A stretch of 35,412 nt of DNA, from assembly GCA_023958085.1 (NCBI GenBank), contig JAMLGI010000017.1, forward strand, positions 1 to 35,412. Reading direction: 5' to 3'. The stretch is from Solirubrobacterales bacterium (GTDB lineage Bacteria > Actinomycetota > Thermoleophilia > Solirubrobacterales > 70-9). The translations under genes and the position numbers were made by a program. The notes beneath the pieces are model-generated. The model was not told where the DNA came from. It did not search any database and saw only the letters and a list, made by a program, of their open reading frames with translations. Positions within the stretch are counted from its first letter, which is position 1. The number at the start of each line of letters is the position of its first letter. Positions 1-35,412 of this stretch are shown here, piece after piece.

Positions 1-49
1 CGGGGGGCGGGCGGTCCGCAGGAACCACCAGAGCGGCGTCTGCGGCGTC

Positions 50-109
50 ACCGGAAGGAAACGACCAGCTCAGGTACGTGGGTACGATCGCGGGCCGTTT
101 CCTTCCGGT
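50..109. repeat. Inverted repeat with 14-bp perfect arms
   Basis: ACCGGAAGGAAACG (50-63) is repeated as its exact reverse complement at 96-109. The 32-nt interior holds a small GTAC-GTGG-GTAC hairpin. There is no U-tract, so a classical intrinsic terminator is not obvious. It may still mark the 3' end of a gene lying left of the window. Confidence 0.7.
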
Positions 110-156
110 TCCTTGCATCCATCCCCTCTGGACGGTCCCGGAGCAGCACCCGCCGC

Positions 157-330
157 GACCGGCAGGGCTGCCGATCCGGGCCCGGTTTGGTCCCTGACCG
201 GCAGGGCTGCCGATCCGGGCGGCACTTGTGGCAGTCACGTCGCGATCGGCAGTGTTGCTCCGGAGCTGATCGGCAGGGCTGGCGATCCGGGTCCGGTTTG
301 GTCTCTGGTTGGCAGGGCTGCCGGTCGGGA
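157..330. repeat. Five imperfect 24-bp repeats, each built on a short palindrome
   Basis: Units begin near 157, 196, 244, 268 and 307. The best units contain CGGCAGGGCTGCCG, a 6-2-6 palindrome, usually followed by ATCCGGG. Two units are also followed by a shared CCGGTTTGGTC segment. Unit spacings are 39, 48, 24 and 39 bp, all multiples of three. Frame 1 is open from the window edge to 417 and would read a repeated DRQGCRSG peptide. The minus strand is also open, with a repeated PDRQPCRS. Neither frame has a good start or a recognisable domain, so I treat 1-512 as repeat-bearing non-genic DNA. Confidence 0.65.
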
Positions 331-461
331 CGGGGGCTCTGCTCGGCGGTCCTTCCTGGAGGAACCCGGGCGGTTGCGTCTGAGGATCCGACCGGGCTGG
401 ATTCGCCCCCTCCCTGAAGGTTGGGTCCCCCCAAAATGCGGGGTGTTTCCGGAAGCCGAAA

Positions 462-474
462 AAGGAGAATCATG
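462..474 (+). promoter_or_regulatory. Orphan strong Shine-Dalgarno plus ATG, out of frame with the Cys-rich protein
   Basis: AAAGGAGAATC directly precedes ATG 472-474. Translation from there gives a 60-residue frame ending at 654 with poor codon usage that overlaps the better Cys-rich frame. Either the ATG opens a short leader peptide, or the Cys-rich gene has a frameshift near its 5' end, or the match is fortuitous. Confidence 0.4.
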
Positions 475-530
475 CGATTTGCGGATTCCGGGGCGACCGG
501 CTCCGGCGACAGTTGCTTGGATGGCACACA

Positions 531-740
531 GTGTCCAACGGCAAGCCCAGGTCCCCCAGTTGCGAAGACTGCTACTTCCGCCAGAAGATGCTCTGCGCGA
601 TGGATCTCGACGAGCCCTGCAGCAGCTTCCGGGAGAGCAAGCCGGAGGGCCTGATGCCACCCCGACAGCCGGTGCTCCTGCTCCGGCCACCCCGCTGGGC
701 CGACGCGGCAGCCGCCCGCCCGGCGCCGTCCACCGGTTGA
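531..740 (+). CDS. Small Cys-rich hypothetical protein
   Basis: About 69 residues from GTG 531; a TTG at 513 would add six. The N-terminal half carries CEDCYFRQKMLC followed by DEPCSSFR, a C-x2-C-x7-C-x7-C pattern that suggests a small metal-binding or disulfide-bonded fold. The C-terminal part is Pro/Arg-rich. Third codon positions are strongly GC-rich in this frame and less so in the others, which is why I call it coding. Start choice is uncertain because no ribosome site precedes 513 or 531. A strong one (AAAGGAG, 462-468) instead precedes an ATG at 472 in another frame. It is the first gene before an MBL hydrolase. I recognise no named family. Confidence 0.55.
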   Translation: MSNGKPRSPSCEDCYFRQKMLCAMDLDEPCSSFRESKPEGLMPPRQPVLLLRPPRWADAAAARPAPSTG

Positions 741-850
741 ACCAAACCACCCTCGCCTGAAGATTCCGACCCGAAATCGGGGAGATCGCCGCTCAACCTC
801 GCTGCTTGGGGAATACTGTCGGCAGCGATGGACGGCCTCGTACCTGGATC

Positions 851-1642
851 ATGAAGCTAACGGTGTTGGGAAAATCACCGGCCTGGCAGGACGCTGATGG
901 TGCCTGCAGTGGGTATCTGATCGAGGAGGGAGGAGCCACTCTGCTGCTCGACTGTGGCAACGGAGTCTTCGGCAAGCTCCGGCGGTACCACGACTACGTC
1001 GATGTCGACGCGATCGTGATCTCCCACCTCCACGCCGACCACTTCTTTGACCTGGTCCCGTATGCGTTCGCCCTGATCCACGCGCCGCGCCAGCAGCCGG
1101 TACCGGTCGATCGCTGGCCGGGAACCGACAGTCCGGCCCGTCCGAAGCTCTACGGTCCCCCCGGGTCACCGGGTGTCTTCAGGCGGCTGGCCGCACTTTG
1201 GGGCCTTGAGTCGCTGGTCGATGACGCTTTCGACATCCATGAGTACGGGCCCGGGTCGCTGGTCTTGGTGAACGGGATCGAGATCGCCTTTCGCGAGGTC
1301 CCGCACTACATCCAGACGCACGCGGTCGGTCTCACCGGGCCGGACGGGCAGCGGATCACCTACGGTGCCGACTGCTCACCGAACCAGAACCTGATCGATT
1401 TCGCGAGTGAAACCGATCTCCTGGTGGCCGAGGCGACCCTTCCGCGTCCCGAACGCACCGGGGTGAGGGGACATCTGACACCCGCCGAAGCCGGAGAACA
1501 CGCGGAAGCCGCCGGGGCGAAGGGGCTGCTCCTCACCCACTTCTCGGACGAGCTGGACGCGGAGTGGGTGGCCGGCCAGGCGAAGCAGCAGTTTTCCGGC
1601 CCGTCCAGGTTGGCGGCCGAGGGACTCGAGCTGACGATCTGA
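851..1642 (+). CDS. MBL-fold metallo-hydrolase, RNase Z-like
   Basis: 263 residues. The metal-binding signature SHLHADH lies at residues 58-64. Further ligands appear as the Asp of GADCSP, the His of GHLTPAEAG and the His of LLTHF near the C-terminus. The overall layout matches the RNase Z/ElaC-like branch of metallo-beta-lactamase-fold enzymes, which cleave phosphodiester or related bonds with two metal ions. It is shorter than typical tRNase Z, and I see no clear flexible arm for tRNA binding, so the substrate is unknown. ATG 851 is chosen because the beta-strand MKLTVLG begins there; a TTG at 806 would add 15 unlikely residues. It lies 81 bp before hsp20 in the same direction. Confidence 0.85.
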   Translation: MKLTVLGKSPAWQDADGACSGYLIEEGGATLLLDCGNGVFGKLRRYHDYVDVDAIVISHLHADHFFDLVPYAFALIHAPRQQPVPVDRWPGTDSPARPKLYGPPGSPGVFRRLAALWGLESLVDDAFDIHEYGPGSLVLVNGIEIAFREVPHYIQTHAVGLTGPDGQRITYGADCSPNQNLIDFASETDLLVAEATLPRPERTGVRGHLTPAEAGEHAEAAGAKGLLLTHFSDELDAEWVAGQAKQQFSGPSRLAAEGLELTI

Positions 1643-1709
1643 AGCCACGGATGGGCTGGCTCCAGGGGTCGGTCCCGGGGGTGCTTCGCAGCCCAGTCGG
1701 AATAGGTCC

Positions 1710-1715
1710 TAAGCT
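1710..1715 (+). promoter_or_regulatory. Candidate -10 box of hsp20-lon (TAAGCT)
   Basis: TAAGCT fits the actinobacterial TANNNT -10 pattern and ends 8 nt before ATG 1724. No Shine-Dalgarno sequence lies between, so a leaderless or nearly leaderless transcript is predicted. I saw no HAIR or CIRCE operator in the 81-bp gap. Confidence 0.45.
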
Positions 1716-1723
1716 AACAGGCG

Positions 1724-2185
1724 ATGACTGAACGCGACCTGTTTTCGAACTTCGCCCGGATGCGCCGGGAGATGGATGAGCTGCTCGGGGGAACCTGGGC
1801 GCGCACCGCATACATCAGTCGCCGGGCGGGCGGCTTTTCCCCGAACGTCGACGTCTACTACGCCGGTGATCCGCAACGCGCAGTAGTCAAGTGCGACCTG
1901 GCCGGGATAGACCTGTCCACGGTCGGGATCGAGGTGAGCGGACGACAGCTGACCATCATCGGCGAACGGCCGGTTCAGGAGACCGAGGGCCGGGTGTACC
2001 AGCAGGTCGAGATCCCCACCGGACCGTTCCGGCATGTGGTCGAGCTCCAGGTCGACGTCGATTCCGAGCGGGCGTCCGCCGACTTCGACGACGGCATGCT
2101 CCGGATCGAACTGCCGCTGAGGAACGACTCGGAGATCAGCCGCCGGGTTCCGGTCGATCGGGTCCGCAAGGAGCGTGATCGGTGA
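1724..2185 (+). CDS. Small heat-shock protein, Hsp20/alpha-crystallin family
   Basis: 153 residues. An N-terminal region (MTERDLFSNFARMRREMDELLGG) precedes an alpha-crystallin domain from about residue 42. The domain includes the typical 'PNVDVYYAGD', 'VKCDLAGI', 'IIGERP' and 'DGMLRIELPLR' strands. Such proteins are ATP-independent holdases that keep unfolding clients soluble in the cytoplasm. The C-terminal IXI motif is not obvious. The stop overlaps the lon start by 4 bp (GTGA), so both are almost certainly cotranscribed and translationally coupled. That pairs a chaperone that sequesters damaged proteins with the protease that removes them. Confidence 0.93.
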   Translation: MTERDLFSNFARMRREMDELLGGTWARTAYISRRAGGFSPNVDVYYAGDPQRAVVKCDLAGIDLSTVGIEVSGRQLTIIGERPVQETEGRVYQQVEIPTGPFRHVVELQVDVDSERASADFDDGMLRIELPLRNDSEISRRVPVDRVRKERDR

Positions 2186-4590
2186 GCGATCCAGACTCGA
2201 ACCAGGTATCGGTGCTGGAGGTGGTTGAGTCCGGCCGGGAGGAGGAGGCGATCCGGGAGAGCGAAGGACTTCCCGACGCGATGCCGGTGCTGCCGCTTCG
2301 GGACACGGTCGCCTACCCGGAAACGATCTCCCCGCTCGGGGTGGGCCAGGAGCGTTCGATCAAGCTGGTCGATGATGTTCTCGGCGCCAACCGGATGCTG
2401 GTCATGGTCGCGTCCCGGGACCCGGAGGACGACACCCCGGGACCTGACCAGCTTCACGAGGTCGGGGTGGTCGGGGTGGTCACCCGGATGCTCAAGGTCC
2501 CGGATGGCACGATCCGGATTCTGGTCGAGGGTGGGCAGCGGGTTCGGCTCGGCCCCTACATCGCCGAGAAGCCGTATCTGGTAGCCCGGATTACCGCGAT
2601 GCCGGACCTGCTGGAACCCTCTCCGGAGATGGAGGCGCTCACCCGCAACGTCCAGCGGACCTTCTCCGAGATCATCGAGCAGATCCCGTACCTGCCGGAA
2701 GAACTCCAGATGGCGGTTGCCAACGTGGATGAACCCTCGGCTCTCACCCACCTGATCGCCGGGGCGCTGCGAATCCCCACCGAGGAGAAGCAGACCCTTC
2801 TGGAAGAGGTGGATGTAGCCAAGCGGCTGCGGACGCTGTCCGGAATACTCGCCCGCGAGCTGGAGGTGATCCAGCTCGGCAGCCAGATCCAGTCGGAGGT
2901 CCAGTCCTCGATCGACAAGGGCCAGCGGGAGTTCTTCCTGCGCGAGCAGCTCAAGGCGATCCAGGCGGAACTCGGCGAGGAGGACGAGCAGCAGGCCGAG
3001 ATCAACGAACTGCGCGACCGGATCGAGGAGGCGGGTCTCCCGGAAGAGGCGCGCAAGGCAGCCGACCGGGAACTTTCCCGGCTGGAGAAACTGCCCCCCG
3101 CGGCGGCTGAGCACGGGGTGATCCGAACCTATCTCGAGTGGCTGGTTGAACTGCCGTGGTCGAAGAAGACGGAAGACAACCTCGACATCGAACACGCTCG
3201 CGAGGTCCTCGACACCGACCACTACGACCTGGAGAAAATCAAGGACCGGATCCTCGAGTACCTGGCGGTCCGCAAACTGAACCCGGATTCGCCCGGGCCG
3301 ATTCTCTGCTTCGCCGGGCCTCCCGGGGTCGGCAAGACCTCGCTCGGCAAGTCGATCGCCCGGGCGCTCGGCCGCGAGTTCGAACGGATCTCGGTCGGCG
3401 GGGTGCGCGACGAGGCAGAGATCCGGGGTCACCGCCGCACCTACATCGGCGCGATGCCGGGCACGATCGTTCGCGCCCTGCGGGACGCCGGGTCGCGCAA
3501 CCCGGTGTTCATGATCGACGAGATCGACAAGATGGGCGCGGACTTCCGCGGCGACCCTTCCTCGGCGATGCTCGAGGTACTCGACCCGGCTCAGAACGAC
3601 TCCTTCCGTGATCACTACCTGGACGTTCCGTTCGACCTTTCCGACGTGATGTTCATCGCCACCGCCAACGTGCTGGACACGATCCCGGGGCCGCTGCGGG
3701 ACCGGATGGAGGTGATCAATCTGGCCGGCTACACGGTCGACGAGAAGCTCCACATCGCCCGCCGCTATCTGGTCCCCCGGCAGATCAAGGCGAACGGCCT
3801 GTCCGGGTCCCGAATCGCCTTCTCGGATCCCGCCCTGACCGCGATCATCGAGGAGTACACACGGGAGGCCGGAGTGCGAAATCTGGAACGGGAGATCGGC
3901 ACCGTCTGCCGCAAGATCGCCCGGACCGTGGCGGAAGGCAACGGGTCGGGCCGGAAGGTCACGGTCTCGGGCAAGAAGGCGAGGGAGCTGCTCGGGCGCC
4001 GACGGGTCTTCTCCGAGACCCGGCGCAGAACCCGGGTCCCCGGGGTTTCAACCGGGCTGGCCTGGACCCCGACCGGCGGCGACGTCCTTTTCATCGAGGC
4101 GACCGCCATGCCCGGCACCGGCAAGCTGGCGATCACCGGGCAGCTCGGTGACGTGATGAAGGAGTCGGCCCAGGCCGCGCTTTCCTACGTCCGGGCCAAC
4201 GCCGCCCGACTGGCCGGGGAACTCGAGGACGACTGGTTTGCCACCCATGACATCCACATCCACGTTCCCGCCGGGGCCGTACCGAAGGACGGTCCGTCGG
4301 CCGGCGTGGCGATGACCGTGGCGCTGGTGTCGCTCATCACCGGCCGTCCGGTCAGAAACGATGTCGCGATGACCGGCGAGGTGACGCTGACCGGCCAGGT
4401 GCTGCCGATCGGCGGAGTCAAGGAGAAATCGCTGGCCGCCCAGGCGGCCCGGATCGGGCTGGTTATCCTGCCTTCCCGCAACGAAGGTGACGTGGCCGAG
4501 ATCCCCGGGCATGAGCGGGAAGGAATCGAGTTCACCTATGCCGACCGGGTCGAGGATGCGCTCGAGGCGGCGCTTGAGGGATCAGGATAG
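2182..4590 (+). CDS. lon: ATP-dependent protease Lon
   Basis: 802 residues, normal for LonA. Order: N-terminal substrate-binding LON domain starting at MPVLPLRDT (about residue 34), a long coiled-coil helical region (about 200-330), the AAA+ module with Walker A GPPGVGKTS (about 378-386) and Walker B VFMIDEID. The C-terminal protease domain carries catalytic Ser706 in PKDGPSAG and the partner Lys in GGVKEK (747-749). It unfolds and degrades damaged and regulatory proteins in the cytoplasm. GTG 2182 overlaps the hsp20 stop and is preceded by AAGGAG (2168-2173), which fixes the start. An extra acidic N-terminal extension of about 30 residues precedes the LON domain. Confidence 0.98.
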   Translation: MSDPDSNQVSVLEVVESGREEEAIRESEGLPDAMPVLPLRDTVAYPETISPLGVGQERSIKLVDDVLGANRMLVMVASRDPEDDTPGPDQLHEVGVVGVVTRMLKVPDGTIRILVEGGQRVRLGPYIAEKPYLVARITAMPDLLEPSPEMEALTRNVQRTFSEIIEQIPYLPEELQMAVANVDEPSALTHLIAGALRIPTEEKQTLLEEVDVAKRLRTLSGILARELEVIQLGSQIQSEVQSSIDKGQREFFLREQLKAIQAELGEEDEQQAEINELRDRIEEAGLPEEARKAADRELSRLEKLPPAAAEHGVIRTYLEWLVELPWSKKTEDNLDIEHAREVLDTDHYDLEKIKDRILEYLAVRKLNPDSPGPILCFAGPPGVGKTSLGKSIARALGREFERISVGGVRDEAEIRGHRRTYIGAMPGTIVRALRDAGSRNPVFMIDEIDKMGADFRGDPSSAMLEVLDPAQNDSFRDHYLDVPFDLSDVMFIATANVLDTIPGPLRDRMEVINLAGYTVDEKLHIARRYLVPRQIKANGLSGSRIAFSDPALTAIIEEYTREAGVRNLEREIGTVCRKIARTVAEGNGSGRKVTVSGKKARELLGRRRVFSETRRRTRVPGVSTGLAWTPTGGDVLFIEATAMPGTGKLAITGQLGDVMKESAQAALSYVRANAARLAGELEDDWFATHDIHIHVPAGAVPKDGPSAGVAMTVALVSLITGRPVRNDVAMTGEVTLTGQVLPIGGVKEKSLAAQAARIGLVILPSRNEGDVAEIPGHEREGIEFTYADRVEDALEAALEGSG

Positions 4591-4640
4591 TCCCAGCGGG
4601 TATTGTCGAGACACACTGACGAGAGGAGCAGCGAGTAACG

Positions 4641-5090
4641 ATGGGTATTGAGAACGCGAGCAGCAGGGCCGGACAGGCCTACACCAAGGCCCGGGACAAC
4701 GAGTACGTGCGCCGGGTGGTCGAGGACGAGGAGCTTCGCGCAAGCCTGGTCGCAGCTTTTCTCGCCGGTCGCAAGGCCCTCGGCCGGATCTCCAGCAACC
4801 GTGCCTCGGCCGTCGAGTCGGTGACCAGCGACCGCCGGGTGAAGCGCGAACTTCGCACCGCGGCCGAGTCACTGCGCGAAGCGGCAGAACGGATCAAGAC
4901 GCCGCCGAAGAAGCGCCATCCGTTCCGCAATCTGGTGGTTGCCGCGGTGATCACCGGCGGTCTGGTGCTGGTCTTCAGCGAATCGGCCCGGAACTCGGTG
5001 CTTGACGCGATCTTCGGGGCCGAGGAGGAGTTCGTCTACACCTCCCAGACCGGCGCACCGGAGATCAACGGAACGCCCGTAGCAGAGTAG
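4641..5090 (+). CDS. Membrane-anchored hypothetical protein
   Basis: 149 residues. The first ~90 residues are charged and probably helical, rich in Ala/Arg/Glu. A basic stretch (TPPKKRHPFRN) then precedes one hydrophobic segment at about residues 97-113 (LVVAAVITGGLVLVFSE), followed by an acidic tail. By the positive-inside rule the N-terminal part is cytoplasmic and the short tail is outside. A purine-rich ribosome site (GAGAGGAG, about 4619-4626) precedes ATG 4641. It sits between lon and typA. I recognise no family; a structural or stress-related membrane role is only a guess from its neighbours. Confidence 0.75.
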   Translation: MGIENASSRAGQAYTKARDNEYVRRVVEDEELRASLVAAFLAGRKALGRISSNRASAVESVTSDRRVKRELRTAAESLREAAERIKTPPKKRHPFRNLVVAAVITGGLVLVFSESARNSVLDAIFGAEEEFVYTSQTGAPEINGTPVAE

Positions 5091-5120
5091 GGGGCAGCGG
5101 CACGTCAGGCCGCTCCCGGA

Positions 5121-5135
5121 TCAATCATCTAGACT
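5121..5135 (+). promoter_or_regulatory. Candidate typA promoter element TCAATCATCTAG with -10 TAGACT
   Basis: TAGACT (5130-5135) fits TANNNT and lies 12 nt before ATG 5148. The 12-mer TCAATCATCTAG (5121-5132) recurs identically upstream of tatD (20530-20541) and, inverted, at 20373-20384. The shared box may be a regulator site or a conserved extended promoter. Confidence 0.5.
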
Positions 5136-5147
5136 CCCGCGGCCCTC

Positions 5148-6980
5148 ATGGAGCGCCGGGAAGACATACGCAACATCGCGATCGTGGCCCACGTGGATCA
5201 CGGCAAGACGACGCTGGTCGATGCCATGCTCTGGCAGTCCGGGGCTTTCCGGCAGGGTCAGGACGTGGACGAGCGGGTCATGGACTCGATGGATCTCGAG
5301 CGCGAGAAGGGGATCACCATCCTCGCCAAGAACACCGCGGTTCGGTACGGCGAGGTCAAGCTGAACATCATCGACACGCCGGGGCACGCCGATTTCGGCG
5401 GCGAGGTCGAACGCGGCCTGACCATGGTCGACGGGGTGGTTCTCCTGGTGGACGCCTCCGAGGGGCCCCTGCCCCAGACCCGTTTCGTGCTCGGCAAGGC
5501 ACTGGCCGCCGGGCTGCCGGTGATTCTGGTGGTCAACAAGGTCGACCGTCCCGATGCCCGGATCGGTGAGGTCGTGGATGAGGTCTACGAACTCTTCATG
5601 GACCTCGGGGCCGACGACGAGCAGATCGAGTTCCCGATCGTCTACACCAACGGCAAGGAAGGCTGGGCCAGCCTCACCGAGGGGGTGGAGGGAACCGATC
5701 TGAAACCGTTGCTCGACCTGATGGTGGAGCGGATCCCGCCCCCGACCTTTGAGCCGGATCACCCGCTTCAGGCCTGGGTGACCAACCTCGATGCTTCCCC
5801 ATATCTCGGCCGACTGGCCCTCTGCCGGGTGATGCAGGGGGAGATCCGGTCCGGTCGGCCGGTCGCCTGGTGTCGGGCCGACGGCTCGATCGAGCGGGCG
5901 ACCGTGAATGAACTCTTCGTGACCGAGGCCCTTGAACGGGTGCCGGCCGATTCGGCCGGACCGGGCGAGATCATCGCGGTGGCCGGGATTCCCGAAGTGA
6001 CGATCGGCGAGACCCTGGCCGACGCCGAGGATCCCCGTCCGCTGCCGGTGATCCAGGTGGACGAACCTTCGCTATCCATGGTGGTCGGGGTGAACACCTC
6101 GCCACTGGCCGGCCGGGAGGGCAGCAAGATCACCGCCCGCCAGATCCAGGCCCGGCTCGATCAGGAACTGCTCGGCAACGTGGCGATCCGGGTGCTGCCG
6201 ACGGACCGGCCCGACGCCTGGGAGGTGCAGGGCCGCGGTGAACTCCAGTTGGTCGTTCTGCTGGAGATCATGCGACGGGAGGGTTTCGAGCTGACCGCGG
6301 GTCAGCCCCGGGTTCTGACCCGGGAGATCGACGGGGCCACTCATGAGCCGTACGAACGACTGGTGATTGACGTTCCGGAGGAGTACGTCGGGTCGGTCAC
6401 CCAGCTTCTGGCCGGCCGCAAGGGCCGGATGGAGAACATGGTGCAGCAGTCCGACACCCGGACCCGGCTCGACTACGTGATCCCGGCCCGTGGCCTGGTC
6501 GGATTCCGCACCGAGTTCCTGACCGAGACCCGTGGCACCGGGATCCTCAACCATCTGTTCGAAGGCTGGGAGCCGTGGGCGGGGGAGATAGTCACCCGAT
6601 CCACCGGTTCACTGGTTGCCGATCGGCAGGGCGCCAGCGCCAGCTTCGCCCTCTTCGGCCTGCAGGAACGCGGGGGGTTGTTCATCGCTCCGGGCGAGAA
6701 GGTCTACGAAGGGATGATCGTCGGCGAGCACGCCCGGGCGAACGACCTCGACGTGAACGCGGTCAAGGAGAAGCAACTGACCAACATGCGCTCCTCAACC
6801 TCTGACGTGCTGGTCCGGTTGACCCCGCCGAAACCGCTCACACTTGAGTCGGCGGTCGAGTTCCTCCGCTCCGACGAGTGCGTCGAGATCACCCCGGAAT
6901 CGATCCGGCTGCGCAAGGTGGTGCTTGACAAGAACGACCGCATGAAGGCCGCCCGTGCGGTGAAGAACCTCTCGAGGTAG
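5148..6980 (+). CDS. typA: Ribosome-binding translational GTPase TypA/BipA
   Basis: 610 residues, typical for BipA. The GTPase domain shows G1 AHVDHGKT (residues 14-21), G3 DTPGHADF and G4 NKVDR. The EF-G-like domains follow, including the '[21 protein letters not shown]' region, and then the BipA-specific C-terminal domain with '[22 protein letters not shown]'. The protein binds 70S ribosomes and supports 50S assembly and stress growth. No ribosome site precedes ATG 5148; a -10-like box sits close by, suggesting a very short leader. It is monocistronic, ended by a hairpin at 7038-7067. Confidence 0.98.
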
Positions 6981-7037
6981 CAACGCCTTCCGGACCTGTT
7001 GGCCGGCCGGCCGGATCCGGCCTCTCCGACAAAGAGC

Positions 7038-7067
7038 GGGGCGGCGAGACCTTGATCTCACCGCCCC
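7038..7067 (+). terminator. Hairpin terminator after typA
   Basis: GGGGCGG (7038-7044) pairs with CCGCCCC (7061-7067), and GAGA (7046-7049) with TCTC (7056-7059) continues the stem. A pyrimidine-rich CTCTATG follows instead of a strict U-run. Confidence 0.7.
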
Positions 7068-7179
7068 CTCTATGCCCTACCCCTGCCAGCCCTGCCTAGC
7101 ATCCTTCCCTGGCGTGCTGACTGTCACTAACAACAGATTTCCGGGCTCAGGGTTGCGGTCTTTTCCCCGGGGATCCGAA

Positions 7180-7185
7180 TAGGTT
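7180..7185 (+). promoter_or_regulatory. Candidate -10 box of ltrA (TAGGTT)
   Basis: TAGGTT ends 7 nt before GTG 7193 and no Shine-Dalgarno sequence intervenes, so a leaderless mRNA is predicted. Confidence 0.45.
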
Positions 7186-7192
7186 TATCCGG

Positions 7193-8383
7193 GTGAGCAT
7201 CCGTCGCCCGGAACCCGCTGAATCGAGCGACAGTTCGTTCGGGACCACCACGTTCGAACTGTTCTTCGACCTGGTCTTTGTCTTTGCGGTCACCCAGGTC
7301 TCCCATCTCCTGATTGACGACCTCACCTGGACCGGCGCCCTGCACGCGACGATCGCTTTCCTTGTCGTGTGGTGGGCCTGGCAGTACACGGTCTGGATGA
7401 CCAACGAGCTGGATCCGGATGTGGTCCAGGTCCGCCTGCTGTTGATCCTGCTGATGCTCGGCAGTCTCTTCCTTGCGGTCGCGATCCCGGACGCGTTCGG
7501 GGACCGTGGGCTCCTGTTTGCCGGGGCGTACGTCTTCATCCAGGTGGCCCGGCAGAGCTACCTCACCTTCGTTCCGACGACAGCCGGTTCGACCGAACGC
7601 AAGCGGTCGGCACACATTCTGGCCTGGTTTCTGATCTCGGGACTGTTCTGGATCCTCGGTGCCACGCTTGACGGGGACGCCCGGGTCGCGGTCTGGCTGC
7701 TGGCCCTGGCGGTCGACTTCGGTGCTCCACGGATCGCCTACCGTCTGCCCTTCGTCAGGCCGGTGACCCTCGATGACTGGGCGGTCGGCAGCGGGCACTT
7801 CTCAGAGCGATTTCAGGCGTTCACGATCATCGCGCTGGGGGAGACAGTGGTCCTGACCGGTGCCACGGCCTCGGGTCTCGATCTCACCCCCGGGGTGGTG
7901 TCCGCGATGGTGGCCGCCTTCGTCGGTACGGTCGCCCTCTGGTGGCTCTACTTCAACACCGTCTCGACCGTCTTCGCCGATCTGCTCGAACACGCTGACA
8001 CCCGGACCGCCGTGGCCCGCGACCTGTTCACCTATGGTCACATCCCGATCGTCGCCGGAATCATCCTCTGTGCGGTCGGCAACGATCTGGCTATCCATCA
8101 GGGCGGGGATACCGTCGGGATCGCGCTGACCACCGTGCTGGTCGCCGGGCCGGTGCTCTACCTGCTCGCCTACGTCCCGGCCCGCTGGCAGGTGGACCGG
8201 AGCCTTCCCCGCTGGCGGATCGGCGGCGCGGGGGCCAGTCTGGTGGCCGGCGTGGTTGCCACGATCGTCGGCGCTTCCGTGCTGGCTCTGGGCGTCGCGC
8301 TCACCCTGATTCTGATTGCGGTGGTGGCCGGGGAGTTCCGGCTTCCGCTCACCGTTCTGACCGACCGCCGGTCCCACAACTGA
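7193..8383 (+). CDS. ltrA: LtrA-like low-temperature-requirement membrane protein
   Basis: 396 residues with about ten hydrophobic helices. The hallmark N-terminus 'FELFFDLVFVFAVTQVSHLL' (residues ~21-40) and the later 'RFQAFTIIALGETVVLTGAT' segment identify the LtrA family of polytopic membrane proteins. The family is named after a Listeria gene needed for growth in the cold; its biochemical activity is unknown. GTG 7193 is the first start before the hallmark motif and has a -10-like box 7 nt upstream. It is followed after 20 bp by an ArsR regulator in the same direction. Confidence 0.9.
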   Translation: MSIRRPEPAESSDSSFGTTTFELFFDLVFVFAVTQVSHLLIDDLTWTGALHATIAFLVVWWAWQYTVWMTNELDPDVVQVRLLLILLMLGSLFLAVAIPDAFGDRGLLFAGAYVFIQVARQSYLTFVPTTAGSTERKRSAHILAWFLISGLFWILGATLDGDARVAVWLLALAVDFGAPRIAYRLPFVRPVTLDDWAVGSGHFSERFQAFTIIALGETVVLTGATASGLDLTPGVVSAMVAAFVGTVALWWLYFNTVSTVFADLLEHADTRTAVARDLFTYGHIPIVAGIILCAVGNDLAIHQGGDTVGIALTTVLVAGPVLYLLAYVPARWQVDRSLPRWRIGGAGASLVAGVVATIVGASVLALGVALTLILIAVVAGEFRLPLTVLTDRRSHN

Positions 8384-8390
8384 CGGGTTG

Positions 8391-8396
8391 TAACCT
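8391..8396 (+). promoter_or_regulatory. Candidate -10 box of the arsR-type gene (TAACCT)
   Basis: TAACCT ends 7 nt before GTG 8404 in the 20-bp gap after ltrA. The same spacing occurs at other heads, which favours GTG 8404 over ATG 8410. Confidence 0.4.
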
Positions 8397-8403
8397 TCAG
8401 GGG

Positions 8404-8748
8404 GTGGCGATGCCGACTCCACTCCCGGATGATCTCGCCGAGTTGATCTCGGGCCAGTTTCGCCTGCTGGCCGAGCCGATGAGGCTGCGGCTCCTGGAGC
8501 GGCTCAGGGCCGGGGAGAGAAGCGTCGGGGATCTGGCGGAGGAACTCGGTGCCTCCCAGCAGAACGTCTCCAAGCACCTGCAGACGCTGTTCGGGGCGGG
8601 GGCCGTGGCCCGTCGCAAACAGGGCAACTCGGTTCTCTACCGGATCGAGGACCCCGAGTTGATGGCGATGTGCGACCAGGTCTGTTCCAGCGTCGAGCGC
8701 AGGTTCGGCCGGGTCGCCGAAGTGCTCTCCTCGATCGATCCCGCCTGA
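8404..8748 (+). CDS. ArsR/SmtB-family winged-helix repressor
   Basis: 114 residues. The ArsR fold is clear: 'FRLLAEPMRLRLLERLRAGERSVGDLAEELGASQQNVSKHLQTLFGAGAVARRKQGNSVLYRI', comprising helix-turn-helix and wing. The classical ELCVCDL metal site is absent (RSVGDLAEEL), but a CDQVC pair lies near the C-terminus and could sense metal or redox state. It precedes a DUF2892-MMPL operon whose promoter region contains GATAG-N7-CTATC, a plausible operator. I infer that it represses that operon or itself; the inducer is unknown. Confidence 0.9.
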   Translation: MAMPTPLPDDLAELISGQFRLLAEPMRLRLLERLRAGERSVGDLAEELGASQQNVSKHLQTLFGAGAVARRKQGNSVLYRIEDPELMAMCDQVCSSVERRFGRVAEVLSSIDPA

Positions 8749-8763
8749 CCCCTCCGGGCACCG

Positions 8764-8810
8764 CCGAGGTGTCGATTGTCCGGCATTATCCCGGCTTTTC
8801 TACACCTCGG
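8764..8810. repeat. Inverted repeat CCGAGGTGT / ACACCTCGG
   Basis: Perfect 9-bp arms at 8764-8772 and 8802-8810 enclose 29 nt with a second small CCGG-loop-CCGG stem followed by CTTTTCT. It begins 15 nt after the arsR stop. It may terminate the arsR message, or insulate the promoter of the next operon. Confidence 0.55.
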
Positions 8811-8830
8811 TGGGGCTGGTGGGGTTTCTT

Positions 8831-8847
8831 GATAGTCTCTTGCTATC
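8831..8847. promoter_or_regulatory. Candidate ArsR operator GATAG-N7-CTATC
   Basis: GATAGTCTCTTGCTATC is a perfect 5-7-5 inverted repeat in an unusually AT-rich patch (8828-8875) that also holds TTGATA (8829-8834) and TATACA (8848-8853). It lies 37 nt before GTG 8885, where a repressor could block transcription. Confidence 0.5.
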
Positions 8848-8884
8848 TATACAACTACACAATGGATTAGTAGAGGAGATCAGC

Positions 8885-9136
8885 GTGACCCCCGACACCA
8901 ACTGTGATGCCAAACGAGGCTGGGCTCTGGAGCGAGTGCTCTTCGCCATGGCCGGAACGATGAGCCTGCTAAGCGCCCTGCTGGCAGCGGTCGTTTCCCC
9001 CTGGTTTCTGCTGCTGACCGCCTTTGTCGGCGTCAGCCAGTGGATGTACGTCCTGGTCGGTGCCTGCCCCGCATCGCTGGTCCTCACCCGGGTCTTCGGG
9101 CTCCGGCCTGCCACGGCTTCCGGAGAGCGTTCATGA
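8885..9136 (+). CDS. DUF2892-type small membrane protein
   Basis: 83 residues from GTG 8885, chosen for the ribosome site AGAGGAG about 7 nt upstream. Two membrane segments (about 17-37 and 41-60) are followed by GACPASLVLTRVFGLRP, resembling the C-terminus of the YgaP-like inner-membrane domain family with its conserved Cys. Members are often found beside rhodanese-like or ArsR genes in sulfur or metal stress clusters; function is unknown. The stop overlaps the MMPL start (ATGA, 9133-9136), so the two are translationally coupled. Confidence 0.8.
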   Translation: MTPDTNCDAKRGWALERVLFAMAGTMSLLSALLAAVVSPWFLLLTAFVGVSQWMYVLVGACPASLVLTRVFGLRPATASGERS

Positions 9137-30858: not shown

Positions 30859-32265
30859 TTGTCTCCGTCGATCTCGACAACCGCGCTGATCATGGCGGCG
30901 GGTCAGGGTACCCGCATGCGTTCCGACCTGCCCAAGGTGCTCCACCCGCTCTGTGGCCGGGCGATGATCGAGTGGCCGGTCCGGGCCGCCCGGGAGGCCG
31001 GGATCGGGCGGGTCGCGGTGATCGTCTCCCCGGACCGGGACCTTTCCGGCCATCTGCCCGAACAGACCGAGATGGTGGTCCAGCCGGAGGCGAACGGAAC
31101 CGGCGGCGCGGTGCGGGCCGCGATCGACGTGATCCGGGGCTCGGGTGACGTCCTGGTGCTCTCCGGTGACGTTCCGCTGGTTTCAGCCGAGGTGATCTCG
31201 GAGCTGATCGAGGCCCATCGCCAGGCGGCCGCTGCGGCGACGGTGATGACCGCGATCCTCGAGGACCCGGGCTCCTACGGCCGGGTGGTCCGGGACGGTG
31301 ACGGGGCGGTCGAACGGATCGTCGAGGCCAAGGCGCCTGGCGATGCCACCCCGGAAGAGCTCGAGATCCGCGAGGTCAACTCCGGTACCTACGTCTTTTC
31401 CGGCGAGTCGCTCGTTTCGGCCCTGGGCGAGATCGACAGCGACAACGCGCAGGGCGAGTACTACCTCCCCGATGTGCTCAAGGTGATGCGAGGCCGGGGC
31501 GAAGCGGTGGCCGCACATGTTGCCGCCGACCCGGCGATCAACCTCGGAATCAACAGCCGGGCCGATCTGGCCGCGGTCGAAGCCGAGGCCCGGCGGCGAA
31601 TCAATCAGGGTCACATGCAGAACGGTGTCACGATCGTCGATCCGGCTTCGACCTGGATCGACGCCGGCGTCACGATCGGGCGCGACGCCCGGATCGAACC
31701 GGGCACCTCGCTCAAGGGGGCTACCGAGGTCGGACCGGAGGCCGAGGTCGGCCCGCACTCGACCGTGATCGATTCCGGGATCGGGGCCCGCTCCCGGGTG
31801 ATCCATTCCTACCTGAACCTCTGCGAACTGGCCCCGGACTGCACGGTCGGACCGTTCGCCTACCTGCGGCCGGGGGCGCGGCTGGAAGACGGAGCCAAGG
31901 CCGGCACCTTCGTCGAGATCAAGAACTCGACCGTCGGCGCGGGGGCGAAGGTGCCGCATCTCTCTTATGTGGGTGACGCCGAGATCGGCCCGAAGGCCAA
32001 CCTCGGGGCCGGCACCATCACCGCCAACTACGACGGGGTGAACAAACACCGGACCGTGATCGGAGCCGGCGCCCGGATCGGGGTCGACACGATGCTGGTC
32101 GCCCCGGTGGAACTCGGCGACGAAGCCTGGACCGGCGCCGGCACCGTTATCCGGCAGAATGTTCCCCCGGGGGCGCTGGCGGTGAGCCGCGGCGACCAGA
32201 GAAACCTGGATGACTACGCCGAGCGGCGCAAGGCCCGCGAGGCAGAAGAGGATCGAAACTCGTGA
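30859..32265 (+). CDS. glmU: Bifunctional GlmU: GlcN-1-P acetyltransferase / UDP-GlcNAc pyrophosphorylase
   Basis: 468 residues. The N-terminal nucleotidyltransferase has ALIMAAGQGTRMRSDLPKVLHPL (~9-31), PEANGTGGAV and LSGDVPL. The C-terminal left-handed beta-helix shows hexapeptide repeats, with the acetyltransferase region LRPGARL and the catalytic-His area GTFVEIKNS...GAGTITANYDGVNKHRT. It makes UDP-GlcNAc for peptidoglycan. TTG 30859 is needed to include the first beta-strand; ATG 30892 would delete it. The last four bases overlap prs (GTGA). Confidence 0.97.
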   Translation: MSPSISTTALIMAAGQGTRMRSDLPKVLHPLCGRAMIEWPVRAAREAGIGRVAVIVSPDRDLSGHLPEQTEMVVQPEANGTGGAVRAAIDVIRGSGDVLVLSGDVPLVSAEVISELIEAHRQAAAAATVMTAILEDPGSYGRVVRDGDGAVERIVEAKAPGDATPEELEIREVNSGTYVFSGESLVSALGEIDSDNAQGEYYLPDVLKVMRGRGEAVAAHVAADPAINLGINSRADLAAVEAEARRRINQGHMQNGVTIVDPASTWIDAGVTIGRDARIEPGTSLKGATEVGPEAEVGPHSTVIDSGIGARSRVIHSYLNLCELAPDCTVGPFAYLRPGARLEDGAKAGTFVEIKNSTVGAGAKVPHLSYVGDAEIGPKANLGAGTITANYDGVNKHRTVIGAGARIGVDTMLVAPVELGDEAWTGAGTVIRQNVPPGALAVSRGDQRNLDDYAERRKAREAEEDRNS

Positions 32266-33293
32266 CCATCGGACAGTCGGCCGTAGCGGCATCTTCGACC
32301 ATCCCCCACGACTACTCGAAGCGGGCGATGGTCTTCGGCGGACGCAGCTCACAGGAGCTGGCGGCGAAGATCGCGGCCAAACTGGGCCTCTCGGTCGGCG
32401 AGGCAACGCTCAAGACCTTCAGCGACGGAGAGATCTACGGCCGCTACGAGGAGTCGATCCGGGGGGCCGACGTGTTCCTGGTCCAGTCGACTTGCGCCAA
32501 CGTCGAGACCGGGATGACCCCCAACGACGCCCTGATGGAGCTGATGATCATGGCCGACGCCGCCCAGGGCGCCTCGGCCCACCGGATCATCGCGGTGATG
32601 CCCTGGTTCGGCTACGCCCGGCAGGACAAAAAGTCCGCTCCGCGTGAGCCGATCACCGCCCGGGTTGTCGCCCGGGCCCTGGAGTCAGTCGGGATCGACC
32701 GCGTTCTGACCATGGACCTCCACGCCGGGCAGATCCAGGGTTTCTTCGACATTCCGGTCGATCACATGACCGCCACGCCGATGCTGACCCAGTACTTCCT
32801 CGACCAGTACGAGGCCAAGGATCTGGTCGTGGTCTCGCCGGACGCCGGCCGGGCCAAGGCGGCCCGGAACTTCGCCCGCAAGATCGGCACCGAGTGGGCG
32901 ATCATGGAGAAGGAGCGCCCGGAGCAGCAGGTGGCCGAGATCGGCTACGTGGTCGGCGACGTGAGAGACAAGATCGCGGTGATCTCGGACGACATGATCG
33001 ACACCGCGGGCACTCTCTGCGCCGCTGCCCGCACCGTGCTGGACGAGGGTGCCAAGAGCGTGATCGCCTGCGCCACCCACGGGGTCTTCTCCGGTCCCGC
33101 CTACGAACGTCTCGCCTACGAGAACTCGGGGCTGGAGAGGATCGTGGTCACCGACACCATTCCTCTCCGTGACGGGGCCCCTGACAACATCTCGGTCCTG
33201 ACCACGGCCGGTACCCTGGCCGACTCGATCCGCCGCATCTTCACCGACGACTCGGTCTCCGAGATCTTCGCCGGCGAGAACCAGCTGTTCTGA
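32262..33293 (+). CDS. prs: Ribose-phosphate pyrophosphokinase
   Basis: 343 residues, with an N-terminal extension of ~20 residues (MTIGQSAVAASSTIPHDYSK). Motifs: TFSDGEIYGRYEESIRGADVF, the flexible loop YARQDKKSAPREPITARVVA, MDLHAGQIQGFFDIPVDH, and the PRPP-binding loop VISDDMIDTAGTLCAAA. It converts ribose-5-phosphate and ATP to PRPP for nucleotide, His and Trp synthesis. GTG 32262 overlaps glmU. In many actinobacteria rplY and pth follow prs; here a restriction-modification region follows instead. Confidence 0.97.
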   Translation: MTIGQSAVAASSTIPHDYSKRAMVFGGRSSQELAAKIAAKLGLSVGEATLKTFSDGEIYGRYEESIRGADVFLVQSTCANVETGMTPNDALMELMIMADAAQGASAHRIIAVMPWFGYARQDKKSAPREPITARVVARALESVGIDRVLTMDLHAGQIQGFFDIPVDHMTATPMLTQYFLDQYEAKDLVVVSPDAGRAKAARNFARKIGTEWAIMEKERPEQQVAEIGYVVGDVRDKIAVISDDMIDTAGTLCAAARTVLDEGAKSVIACATHGVFSGPAYERLAYENSGLERIVVTDTIPLRDGAPDNISVLTTAGTLADSIRRIFTDDSVSEIFAGENQLF

Positions 33294-33302
33294 TTCAGCA
33301 CC

Positions 33303-33318
33303 GCAACTCAAGAGTTGC
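33303..33318 (+). terminator. Short hairpin after prs
   Basis: GCAACTC (33303-33309) and GAGTTGC (33312-33318) are perfect arms with a 2-nt centre, 9 nt after the prs stop. No U-run follows directly (CTGTTTTCG comes about 10 nt later), so it is a weak terminator or a protein-binding palindrome. Confidence 0.4.
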
Positions 33319-33462
33319 CGGTAGCAGCGCTGTTTTCGATGTTGGCGGTCAGCCCTGGTGGACGGTTACCTTGAGAGTCGATGATCGAGTCGAACCAGGA
33401 CGGGAGAATCGGCGGCGACCCGAGTTTGACTCCTCTGCCTACTCTCGGCGTGATGAGACGAC

Positions 33463-33873
33463 ATGGCTGACAACCTGACCCCTGGTCGGCGAAGCGATCT
33501 GATGCGGCGAGTTCGCACGCGTGACACGGCTCCGGAGGTCGAGCTCCGCAAGGCTCTATGGGCGAGAGGCGTCCGCGGTTGGCGGCTTCATCCAACGGGT
33601 ATTCCCGGCAAGCCCGATGTCGTCTGGATCGGACGTCGGATAGCCGTGTTCGTCGATGGAGCCTTCTGGCACGGTCATCCCGACTACTACCACGGACAGT
33701 CCGGGGAGTTCTGGGATCGGAAGATCGCACGCAACAAGGAGCGGGACCTCAATGTTAATGCGGAGCTGACGGATCTTGGCTGGACCGTCTTCCGGGTTTG
33801 GGATTTCGAGATCGAGCGGGACGCCGGGGCATGTGCCGATCGAGTGGCAAGGTTGCTTGACGCGGCCAGATAG
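33463..33873 (+). CDS. vsr: Vsr-like DNA mismatch (very short patch repair) endonuclease
   Basis: 136 residues, normal for Vsr. It matches the family from SDLMRRVRTRDTAPEVELRKALW through GIPGKPDVVW (catalytic Asp52), FVDGAFWHGHPDYY (active-site His at 70 and 72), FWDRKIARNKERD and LGWTVFRVWDFE. Known Vsr enzymes nick T:G mismatches formed by deamination of 5-methylcytosine, protecting sites modified by a partner methyltransferase. Unlike E. coli Vsr, the three zinc Cys are missing (only Cys124 is present), so the structural zinc site is probably lost. Codon third positions are less GC-rich than in prs, suggesting transfer. Confidence 0.9.
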   Translation: MADNLTPGRRSDLMRRVRTRDTAPEVELRKALWARGVRGWRLHPTGIPGKPDVVWIGRRIAVFVDGAFWHGHPDYYHGQSGEFWDRKIARNKERDLNVNAELTDLGWTVFRVWDFEIERDAGACADRVARLLDAAR

Positions 33874-33917
33874 CAGTACGAACATGCGTTCGCCCTCTCT
33901 CCGTCCGACCGGTGATC

Positions 33918-33923
33918 TAGCCT
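33918..33923 (+). promoter_or_regulatory. Candidate -10 box of the methyltransferase (TAGCCT)
   Basis: TAGCCT ends 8 nt before ATG 33932, supporting this start rather than the upstream ATG at 33884. Confidence 0.4.
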
Positions 33924-33931
33924 CCTCGGAT

Positions 33932-34999
33932 ATGGCGCCCTTCTCTTTGGTCGATCTCTTTGCCGGATGTGGCGGCATGACACTTGGTTTTGAGCAGGCC
34001 GGGGATTTCGATAGTCGGTTCGCCGTGGAGTGGGATGAGGACGCGGCCGAAACGTTTCGAAGGAACTTTGGCGATCACGTTTTCGTAGGACCGATTGAGA
34101 ATGTCGTCGAGTTTCCTTCGGCAGACGTGGTCGTTGGCGGCCCGCCGTGCCAAGGGTTTTCACCGTTGAATATGAAGGGCGTCGGCCTTGAACGAAGGTC
34201 GCTCTGGACCGAGTACCTGCGGGCGTTGGAGCAAGCCGGCCCTCAAGCCTTTGTCATGGAGAACGTTCCCGAGCTGCTCCGTTCGGCCGAATACGCCGCC
34301 TTCCGCGAGGCAGCGGGCCAACTCGGATTCGGGGTTGAGGGACGGATCCTGAATGCGGCTGATTTCGGAGTTCCGCAGCGCCGCCGTAGGGCGATCGTGA
34401 TCGGCACACGTGAGCCCGGTTTTGAATGGCCCGATCCAACTCACTTTCGACCCAACGGAATTTCCCTTTCGGGACGCCCTTGGCGAACCTTTGCCGAGGC
34501 GGTCGACGGACTCCCGCTGGAGCCAACCGGTGAGAACTGGCACAACCCTCGCAACCCTCGCCCCATGAGCGTTGAGCGGTACCGGACGATCCCCAACGAG
34601 GGTGAGGGCCGCTTTGATCTGGCCAGACGCCGACCGGACATCACACCCGCGTGCTGGTTGCGAAAGAAGACCGGTTCCACCGATGTCTTCGGTCGACTCT
34701 GGTGGGACAGGCCGGCCTTCACTATCCGGACCGAGTTCTACAAGCCCGAGAAGGGGAGATATCTTCACCCGAGCGAGCATCGCCCGATCACGGTCAGGGA
34801 AGCGGCTCGCTGCATGACCTTCCCCGATGAGTTCGAATTCCCGCTCGAGCAGTCGATGACTTCGGTGGCAAAACAGATAGGAAATGCGGTTCCACCGACT
34901 CTGGCGACCAGCATCGCCAGGTCCGTGGCGGATCATCTCCGCATGACCGGTACCGATTCGGCCGACGCGGAGATCGAGCCCGCGCTCAGCGCGGCCTAG
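33932..34999 (+). CDS. DNA cytosine-5 methyltransferase
   Basis: 355 residues. Ordered motifs: I LVDLFAGCGGMTLGF (6-20), IV GGPPCQGFSPLN with catalytic Cys73, VI MENVPELL (~109-116), VIII VPQRRRRAIVIG, a target-recognition region, IX ITVREAARCMTFPDEF and X IGNAVPPTLA. It transfers methyl from SAM to C5 of cytosine within a specific site; the site cannot be read from the sequence. The vsr gene lies 58 bp upstream and an HNH endonuclease overlaps convergently by 14 bp, forming a probable type II restriction-modification set. Codon use is more AT-tolerant than in the housekeeping genes. Confidence 0.95.
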   Translation: MAPFSLVDLFAGCGGMTLGFEQAGDFDSRFAVEWDEDAAETFRRNFGDHVFVGPIENVVEFPSADVVVGGPPCQGFSPLNMKGVGLERRSLWTEYLRALEQAGPQAFVMENVPELLRSAEYAAFREAAGQLGFGVEGRILNAADFGVPQRRRRAIVIGTREPGFEWPDPTHFRPNGISLSGRPWRTFAEAVDGLPLEPTGENWHNPRNPRPMSVERYRTIPNEGEGRFDLARRRPDITPACWLRKKTGSTDVFGRLWWDRPAFTIRTEFYKPEKGRYLHPSEHRPITVREAARCMTFPDEFEFPLEQSMTSVAKQIGNAVPPTLATSIARSVADHLRMTGTDSADAEIEPALSAA

Positions 35000-35412
35000 T
35001 CTGTCTCCTTCTTGCCCGCTTCGTTTTCTGCATTTTCTCCGTCTCCCGAACATGATCCGAGTGACAGAGGGTGATCAAGTTGTCGGGCTCGTTGCGATCC
35101 GCAGTTGGCAGCTCACCGATTTCATCGGCGATTGCGACCTTGTGGTGAAGCTCCAGGTAGAACCGTCGATCCCCGGCCGCTTCGGCTGAGTCCCGGTCCC
35201 GGCCGCAGGTTTGGCAGGTGTAGTTGTCCCGCTCGAACACCTTCTGGCGCAGGGCGTCGGGGTAGAGGCGCTGAGAAAGGTCACGGCGGTCTGCCGGATC
35301 ATTGGAAACCAGCCGGTACTCGGAGGGTCTCAGGGACGGATCGTCGATGTGGGTCTCGATCGGCCAGCCGTGTTCGTCACGAAGCTCTCTTAGCCGGCGG
35401 CTGCCCTCCTTG
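34986..35412 (-). CDS. HNH endonuclease, 5' end beyond the window (probable restriction enzyme)
   Basis: At least 141 residues are visible; the frame stays open to the window edge, so the start lies outside. The C-terminal HNH domain is clear: FERDNYTCQTCGRDR, then YLELHHKVAIADEIG, then EPDNLITLCHSDHVRETEK, giving paired Cys zinc knuckles and the H-N-H catalytic residues. Upstream, 'LRELRDEHGWPIETH' and 'LRPSEYRL' suggest a small winged-helix DNA-binding domain. The convergent overlap with the cytosine methyltransferase makes it the likely cognate restriction enzyme (inference). A GTG at 35240 exists but would remove the upstream coding-like sequence. Confidence 0.85.
   Translation of the reverse strand, partial: KEGSRRLRELRDEHGWPIETHIDDPSLRPSEYRLVSNDPADRRDLSQRLYPDALRQKVFERDNYTCQTCGRDRDSAEAAGDRRFYLELHHKVAIADEIGELPTADRNEPDNLITLCHSDHVRETEKMQKTKRARRRQTRPR

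Follow-up and report, generated by a model that had tools for sequence, protein, structure and literature searches.

A predicted type II restriction-modification island with a Vsr repair gene and an HNH nuclease next to prs in a Solirubrobacterales bacterium

NaeI is a restriction enzyme that cleaves GCCGGC. The NgoMIV cut is G^CCGGC (PMC4081073, where the NaeI site is printed in an apparent misprint), the gonococcal NgoAIV is listed as GCCGGC with 5mC (PMC6789123, PMC12871193), and plasmid papers assign GCCGGC to NgoMIV-like systems by similarity (PMC3832669, PMC4447125). The locus described here lies at the right end of the window, i.e. the whole stretch of 35,412 nucleotides that was analysed, which is the entire contig C17 of an assembly of 2.44 Mb in 31 contigs. 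It resembles the NaeI and NgoMIV systems in that both nuclease families occur beside the same clade of DNA cytosine-5 methyltransferases (MTases); indeed, in the locus of the closest MTase relative (78%; L063, positions 1-9077), a larger island composed of genes for a GHKL ATPase, Vsr, the MTase, a NaeI-type enzyme, Z1 and DUF4420, the NaeI-type gene fills the slot of the HNH gene of the window. It differs from them in that its nuclease is an HNH enzyme and not a PD-(D/E)XK enzyme, and in that the gonococcal MTase beside NgoMIV belongs to another clade. As in dcm-vsr of Escherichia coli, a C5-MTase adjoins a Vsr endonuclease, but the window adds a restriction enzyme gene and its Vsr has no zinc cysteines. 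Fusions of a winged helix to an HNH domain have been described as stand-alone, N6-methyladenine-dependent type IV enzymes (PMC11037411), whereas the enzymes of the HNH family of the window contain two winged helices and come with a C5-MTase of their own (paired in 24/24 and 3/3 loci, see below). Finally, it is already known that Vsr occurs together with C5-MTases and HNH domains in restriction neighbourhoods (PMC2292703, PMC8011034). The MORC/paraMORC restriction islands with Vsr (PMC2292703) are matched by the GHKL ATPase, Z1 and DUF4420 of L063, although the locus of the window, with the HNH gene at its end, shows none of these three.

The reading preferred here, to which we assign a probability of roughly 0.8, is that the genes form a mobile island in which a type II restriction-modification system is combined with a repair gene, the MTase and the HNH enzyme most likely acting at GCCGGC. 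The MTase would put 5-methylcytosine on the host DNA, most likely at this site, and unmarked incoming DNA would be destroyed at the same site by the HNH enzyme, which may read DNA through two winged helices and cut it with a beta-beta-alpha-metal (HNH) site. Vsr would nick the T:G mismatches arising from 5-methylcytosine deamination, so that the mark would not erode the host genome. Such a system would be of an ordinary kind, but with an unusual and apparently uncharacterised cutter.

Gene content and position of the probable island

The genes for Vsr, a C5-MTase and an HNH protein that the earlier note had placed directly after prs were all recovered by family matches (Table 1). Vsr matched PF03852 (E 1.2e-25) and TIGR00632 (117.4 bits; cut-off 97.85), the MTase, of which the start codon was taken at 33932, matched PF00145 (2.8e-63) and contained the catalytic PC motif as GGPPCQGFS, and the HNH protein matched PF01844 (1e-5, 26 bits; cut-off 21.4). 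The MTase and HNH genes are convergent and their stops overlap by 14 bp (34986-34999). The HNH frame stays open as far as base 35411, and the contig, and with it the window, stops at 35,412, so that the N-terminal part of this gene is missing; presumably it is intact beyond the contig. No second HNH copy was found elsewhere in the source genome.

Table 1. Features of the locus behind prs (positions of the window)
Feature	Position	Strand	Basis or remark
prs (ribose-phosphate pyrophosphokinase), left neighbour	32262..33293	+	PF13793/PF14572; stop at 33293
Spacer prs-vsr, presumed left island edge	33294..33462	.	Past the prs stop, unlike C6 (direct comparison)
Vsr-family endonuclease, 136 aa	33463..33873	+	PF03852, TIGR00632 above cut-off; 1cw0 E 2.3e-18
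DNA cytosine-5 methyltransferase (MTase), 355 aa	33932..34999	+	PF00145, TIGR00675
MTase target-recognition segment, aa 239-285	34646..34786	+	Alignment of 83 relatives; conserved with each type of partner nuclease
HNH endonuclease, C-terminal 141 aa (end of winged helix 2 and HNH)	34986..35411	-	PF01844; alignment A1
HNH domain proper, fragment residues 66-125	35037..35216	-	PF01844 match; conserved His, Asn, His, Cys present

The positions of the zinc-site cysteines of E. coli Vsr, which we take to be a feature of that enzyme that the family models do not require, align with Ala, Asp and Phe in the window Vsr. The active-site residues of E. coli Vsr are given as E25, D51, H64, H69 and D97 (PMC12907096); the window Vsr keeps the equivalents of E25, D51, H69 and D97 and has Asp at the position of H64, an exchange that is also present in the functional V.NgoAXIII and V.Nme18VIP (PMC12907096). 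The less GC-biased codon use that had been noticed relative to prs was confirmed by GC3 values of 0.684 (Vsr), 0.696 (MTase) and 0.738 (HNH) versus 0.907 for prs. Compared with 23 reference genes of the window picked by GC frame (mean 0.838, SD 0.044, minimum 0.719), Vsr and the MTase fell below all of them, and the HNH gene was low yet within range. The proposal that the three genes form one restriction-modification-repair module agrees with the repeated co-occurrence of Vsr, MTase and HNH genes in many phyla and with the existence of proteins in which Vsr and HNH are fused, namely in L127 and in a Pandoraea plasmid. The three-gene stretch can be classed as an island of the type II restriction-modification kind that also encodes a Vsr repair nuclease. 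Fusions of Vsr with a two-winged-helix HNH part are situated at L174 4072-5430 and L127 7123-8460; in the plasmid record, the fused protein is annotated as Vsr and nothing more.

The region beyond prs was readable in 13 of 17 congeners (three other contigs end too early and one genome had no prs match), and the three genes were absent there in all 13. An MTase of this clade was found in none of the 17 congeners, the five with any match reaching 36-41% in their best segment. In congeners, prs is followed by GDPD, DUF6159, ABC1, rplY and pth; five congeners have a long ilvD-like gene first after prs (the Pfam scan covered the genes neighbouring prs on contig C6 and, from one of these five, the ilvD gene). 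The order prs-rplY/pth given in the earlier note holds loosely, both genes being located further on, with GDPD, DUF6159 and ABC1 in between. Far from being syntenic in all relatives and of normal composition, the three genes are absent after prs in 13/13 readable congeners and low in GC3.

Contig C6 of the same genome opens with the last 128 bp of prs (G000:C6:1-128), 98% identical to those of the window; the 3/128 differences are all synonymous, the similarity stops at the prs stop codon, and DUF6159, GDPD, ABC1, rplY and pth follow. No other prs end comes nearly as close to that of the window as the C6 copy (3 differences versus at least 13 in other species, with G005, of which the row was out of register, and G015, which had no readable end, left aside), so that both copies come from one species. 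C17 ends about 2.1 kb past prs, and C6 starts inside prs. The duplicate on C6 fits either an island that entered the 3' end of prs and duplicated it, or two strains in the assembly. The claim of an integration at the prs boundary is upheld as likely, given the 13 readable congeners that lack it and the 17 without a close MTase; the far island end is off the contig, and no integrase is visible. The insertion point would probably be the prs stop codon or its immediate vicinity. A rather unlikely alternative, concerning the place of the island and not its function, is that its position after prs is an artefact of the assembly or of a strain mixture, the island being elsewhere or in another strain. 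The start of C6 within prs, with three synonymous differences in 128 bp and then the usual neighbours, could be explained in this way, yet the closeness of the C6 copy points to one species, and a site-specific insertion into the 3' end of a gene likewise leaves a duplicated 3' end. The GDPD and DUF6159 genes on C6 (L143 159-2353) are inverted relative to those of the congeners.

Nucleases beside the methyltransferase clade

Partner nucleases were sought within 3 kb of 80 MTase relatives (tblastn, E 1e-5 or better; a locus may count in two classes). A two-winged-helix HNH enzyme was present in 33 relatives, a one-winged-helix HNH enzyme in 13, a member of the NaeI family in 17 and one of the NgoMIV family in nine, a weak HNH match (27%) in L122 being dropped from the counts; no HNH-, NaeI- or NgoMIV-type nuclease was found within 3 kb in 13 of the 80. 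Vsr occurred within 3 kb of the MTase in 57/80 relatives. HNH-type and NaeI/NgoMIV-type genes coincided in four loci (L108, L130, L137 and L138), and the co-occurrence of HNH with PD-(D/E)XK enzymes was below chance (Fisher one-sided p 4e-7, uncorrected for relatedness). Five close relatives (L069-L072 and L074) carried the MTase and a convergent Vsr gene, with no recognised nuclease within 3 kb.

The three nuclease families replace each other between related MTases. In a quick MTase tree of 83 rows, in which many branches are weak, the 65 single-partner rows need at least 17 partner changes. The seven-row subtree of the window contains HNH (window, L065, L067 and L068), NaeI (L063) and NgoMIV (L066) partners; the seventh row is L064, of which the sequence ends 124 bp past the MTase. 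Similarly, in Caulobacter, 88%-identical MTases sit with NaeI (L135) or NgoMIV (L246), and the MTases of L247 and L248 (71-72%) are partnered by HNH; a search of 61 genomes of this genus found four members of the MTase clade. Whatever the partner, the identity of the recognition segment to that of the window does not fall below 0.72, with means of 0.82 (HNH), 0.80 (short HNH), 0.81 (NaeI) and 0.79 (NgoMIV), and the core of the segment is common to at least 90% of the 83 rows. Nucleases of three families, differing in fold or branch, serve a single MTase clade here, and this natural series makes it possible to ask how restriction enzymes of the same specificity originate and supplant one another while the host survives.

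The pairing is equally tight when the search starts with the HNH enzyme. The HNH profile matched 4/396 Actinomycetota genomes, including that of the window, and in the other three (3/3) the MTase is adjacent. Among 43 HNH-matching loci on viral contigs, the 24 with a near-full-length HNH gene (L201-L224) all carry the MTase signature TIRTEF[YF]KPEKG, with an MTase match of at least 200 bits in 23 and of 194 bits in one. The other 19 viral loci are partial or one-winged-helix cases, many of them with other MTases, and the signature was found in L239 only; L235 has an HNH fragment without an MTase, the match lying near the end of the stretch examined. The earlier note regarded the HNH protein as the cognate restriction enzyme because of the gene overlap. 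This claim now rests on the comparison with relatives, in which NaeI and NgoMIV replace HNH beside the same MTase and the HNH enzyme pairs with the clade in 24/24 and 3/3 loci, a pattern that supports its assignment as the cognate nuclease of this MTase. The NaeI and NgoMIV families had no match in the genome of the window itself, in searches of which one of two had silent controls too.

The predicted recognition site

As the NaeI and NgoMIV families, both associated with GCCGGC, share one MTase recognition segment, GCCGGC is the best prediction for the site of the system. All five NgoMIV-type partners scanned contained PF09015, the NgoMIV-type enzyme of L107 has 54% identity to its gonococcal homologue over 286 residues, and NaeI-type partners matched NaeI (1ev7) at 3.8e-33 (L063) and 6.8e-53 (L166). 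A rule for the G preceding the target C in C5-MTases has been described (PMC2413257), and an Arg of the MTase nine residues before its TI dipeptide fits this rule in our application, which would place the mark as GmCCGGC. The gonococcal V.NgoAXIII was assayed on a GTCGGC/GCCGGC mismatch (PMC6116569), so that this context is a possible substrate of Vsr enzymes. In this way, a target that is cheap to test can be predicted for a nuclease family occurring in 12 named phyla and in viral contigs.

Two further lines of evidence were abandoned. Firstly, the gonococcal MTase beside NgoMIV, the one enzyme of known GCCGGC specificity in the comparison, is 27.6% identical to that of the window and has a different recognition segment; being too distant and of another clade, its homology does not show the site and was dropped. 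Secondly, site avoidance was set aside, as the depletion of GCCGGC did not stand out in the HNH partner loci (observed/expected 0.74, rank 13 of 64) or in the window (0.86, rank 14 of 20). A survey of 394 Actinomycetia genomes also speaks against the prediction: within 1.5 kb of most NaeI-family genes, the MTases were distant ones or no member of this clade was present, as judged from the neighbourhoods of 20 of 23 matches. In L124, L185 and L187, a NaeI-type and an NgoMIV-type gene share one locus, i.e. two enzymes with one expected site. Locus L171 (NZ_CP119142.1) is a Neisseria gonorrhoeae 'plasmid' record of 2.17 Mb, the size of a chromosome.

It is unlikely that the same module has another site, either a longer or degenerate form of GCCGGC (e.g. 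YGCCGGCR) or another CCGG-type sequence, to which the NaeI- and NgoMIV-like partners would have drifted too. The solitary Caulobacter MTase ScmA, which may or may not belong to the clade, methylates YGCCGGCR (PMC12907096), and the NaeI relatives found here are just moderately similar to NaeI; against this, two restriction enzyme families from different PD-(D/E)XK branches, both specific for GCCGGC when characterised, stand beside the same segment and even share single loci.

Architecture of the HNH enzyme and its possible relation to NaeI

Full-length relatives of the HNH enzyme are about 310 aa long and consist of a helical N-terminus, two winged helices and the HNH domain. An AlphaFold2 model of L067 (mean pLDDT 88.6, pTM 0.59), for which alignment A1 of 33 rows (the window fragment and 32 full-length relatives) served as input, displayed a helical hairpin (2-49), a winged helix (59-116), a helix (123-136), a second winged helix (142-203) and the HNH domain (221-306), the names being read from the secondary structure of the model. 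Comparison of their profiles shows the two winged helices to be duplicates of one another (99.8% probability), and the residues invariant in A1 include R174, R175 and R177 in the second winged helix and H259, N280 and H289 in the HNH domain. An HNH gene of unrelated full-length architecture, which would have spoken against the module, was not encountered. A literature search found no characterised member of this two-winged-helix HNH family. A Paracoccus 16-kDa HNH system (PMC11473606) and a Pectobacterium McrBC-type system (PMC8989522) were considered and turned out to be other systems.

A module decayed in the source genome, with a broken HNH gene and with the MTase and Vsr working alone, is improbable: 141 C-terminal residues are visible before the gene meets the contig end, and the five relatives with MTase and Vsr show that such loci exist, but the visible part is open, retains the conserved HNH residues and adjoins an intact MTase gene. 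It is more improbable still that the HNH enzyme is a modification-dependent (type IV) or homing-type nuclease travelling with the MTase, as winged-helix-HNH fusions known as N6-methyladenine-dependent type IV enzymes (PMC11037411) and weak PADLOC matches to type IV and other HNH families might suggest, since its strict pairing with one MTase clade and the mutual replacement with NaeI and NgoMIV are the pattern of a cognate nuclease, and REase_II was the best PADLOC model for each of four relatives scanned.

In its second winged helix, the HNH enzyme weakly resembles the C-terminal domain of NaeI. Scanned with Pfam, the window fragment and full-length L067 showed HNH alone and no match to the NaeI family (PF09126), a sequence search of the PDB yielded nothing beyond a weak similarity between the HNH part and 5h0m, and Foldseek with the whole model returned no match at E <=0.001. 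Among 999 chains, all previously ranked by Foldseek, VIA-align placed NaeI (1ev7) at the top, with residues 130-204 of the model superposed onto NaeI 180-275 (75 residues, rmsd 2.5) at a Z of 8.4, which is borderline according to the tool and within 1 of the values of several generic winged helices, these matching the first winged helix instead. With small alignments, hhalign gave 12.7%; the second winged helix against 38 NaeI C-terminal domains reached 69% with a score of 31.1, versus no more than 17.1 when the columns were shuffled 100 times, 9.4 with a reversed profile and 10.9 with the NaeI catalytic domain. In addition, among 13,372 open frames, the NaeI C-terminal profile matched HNH enzymes best after NaeI itself (up to 4.6e-9); in the same frames, NaeI was a weak match of the winged-helix profile (best 0.021), behind three other ORFs with HNH-like parts, two of which adjoin NaeI genes. 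As this frame set was enriched for the loci concerned and held no counted generic winged helices, homology between the second winged helix and NaeI is proposed as a hypothesis. Tentatively, and with the balance somewhat against it, the HNH winged helix and the NaeI C-terminal domain may have a common ancestor in a domain that read GCCGGC and became joined to two nuclease folds unrelated to each other, the MTase and Vsr staying the same.

Next to NaeI-type genes, ORFs were found in which an HNH-like region is followed by a winged-helix-like part (L178:2208-3362, L179:2477-3313, L180:515-1477 and L191:590-1468). In those of L179, L180 and L191 the catalytic His seems to be lost. These HNH-like ORFs beside NaeI possibly represent a former HNH enzyme turned into a DNA-binding accessory.
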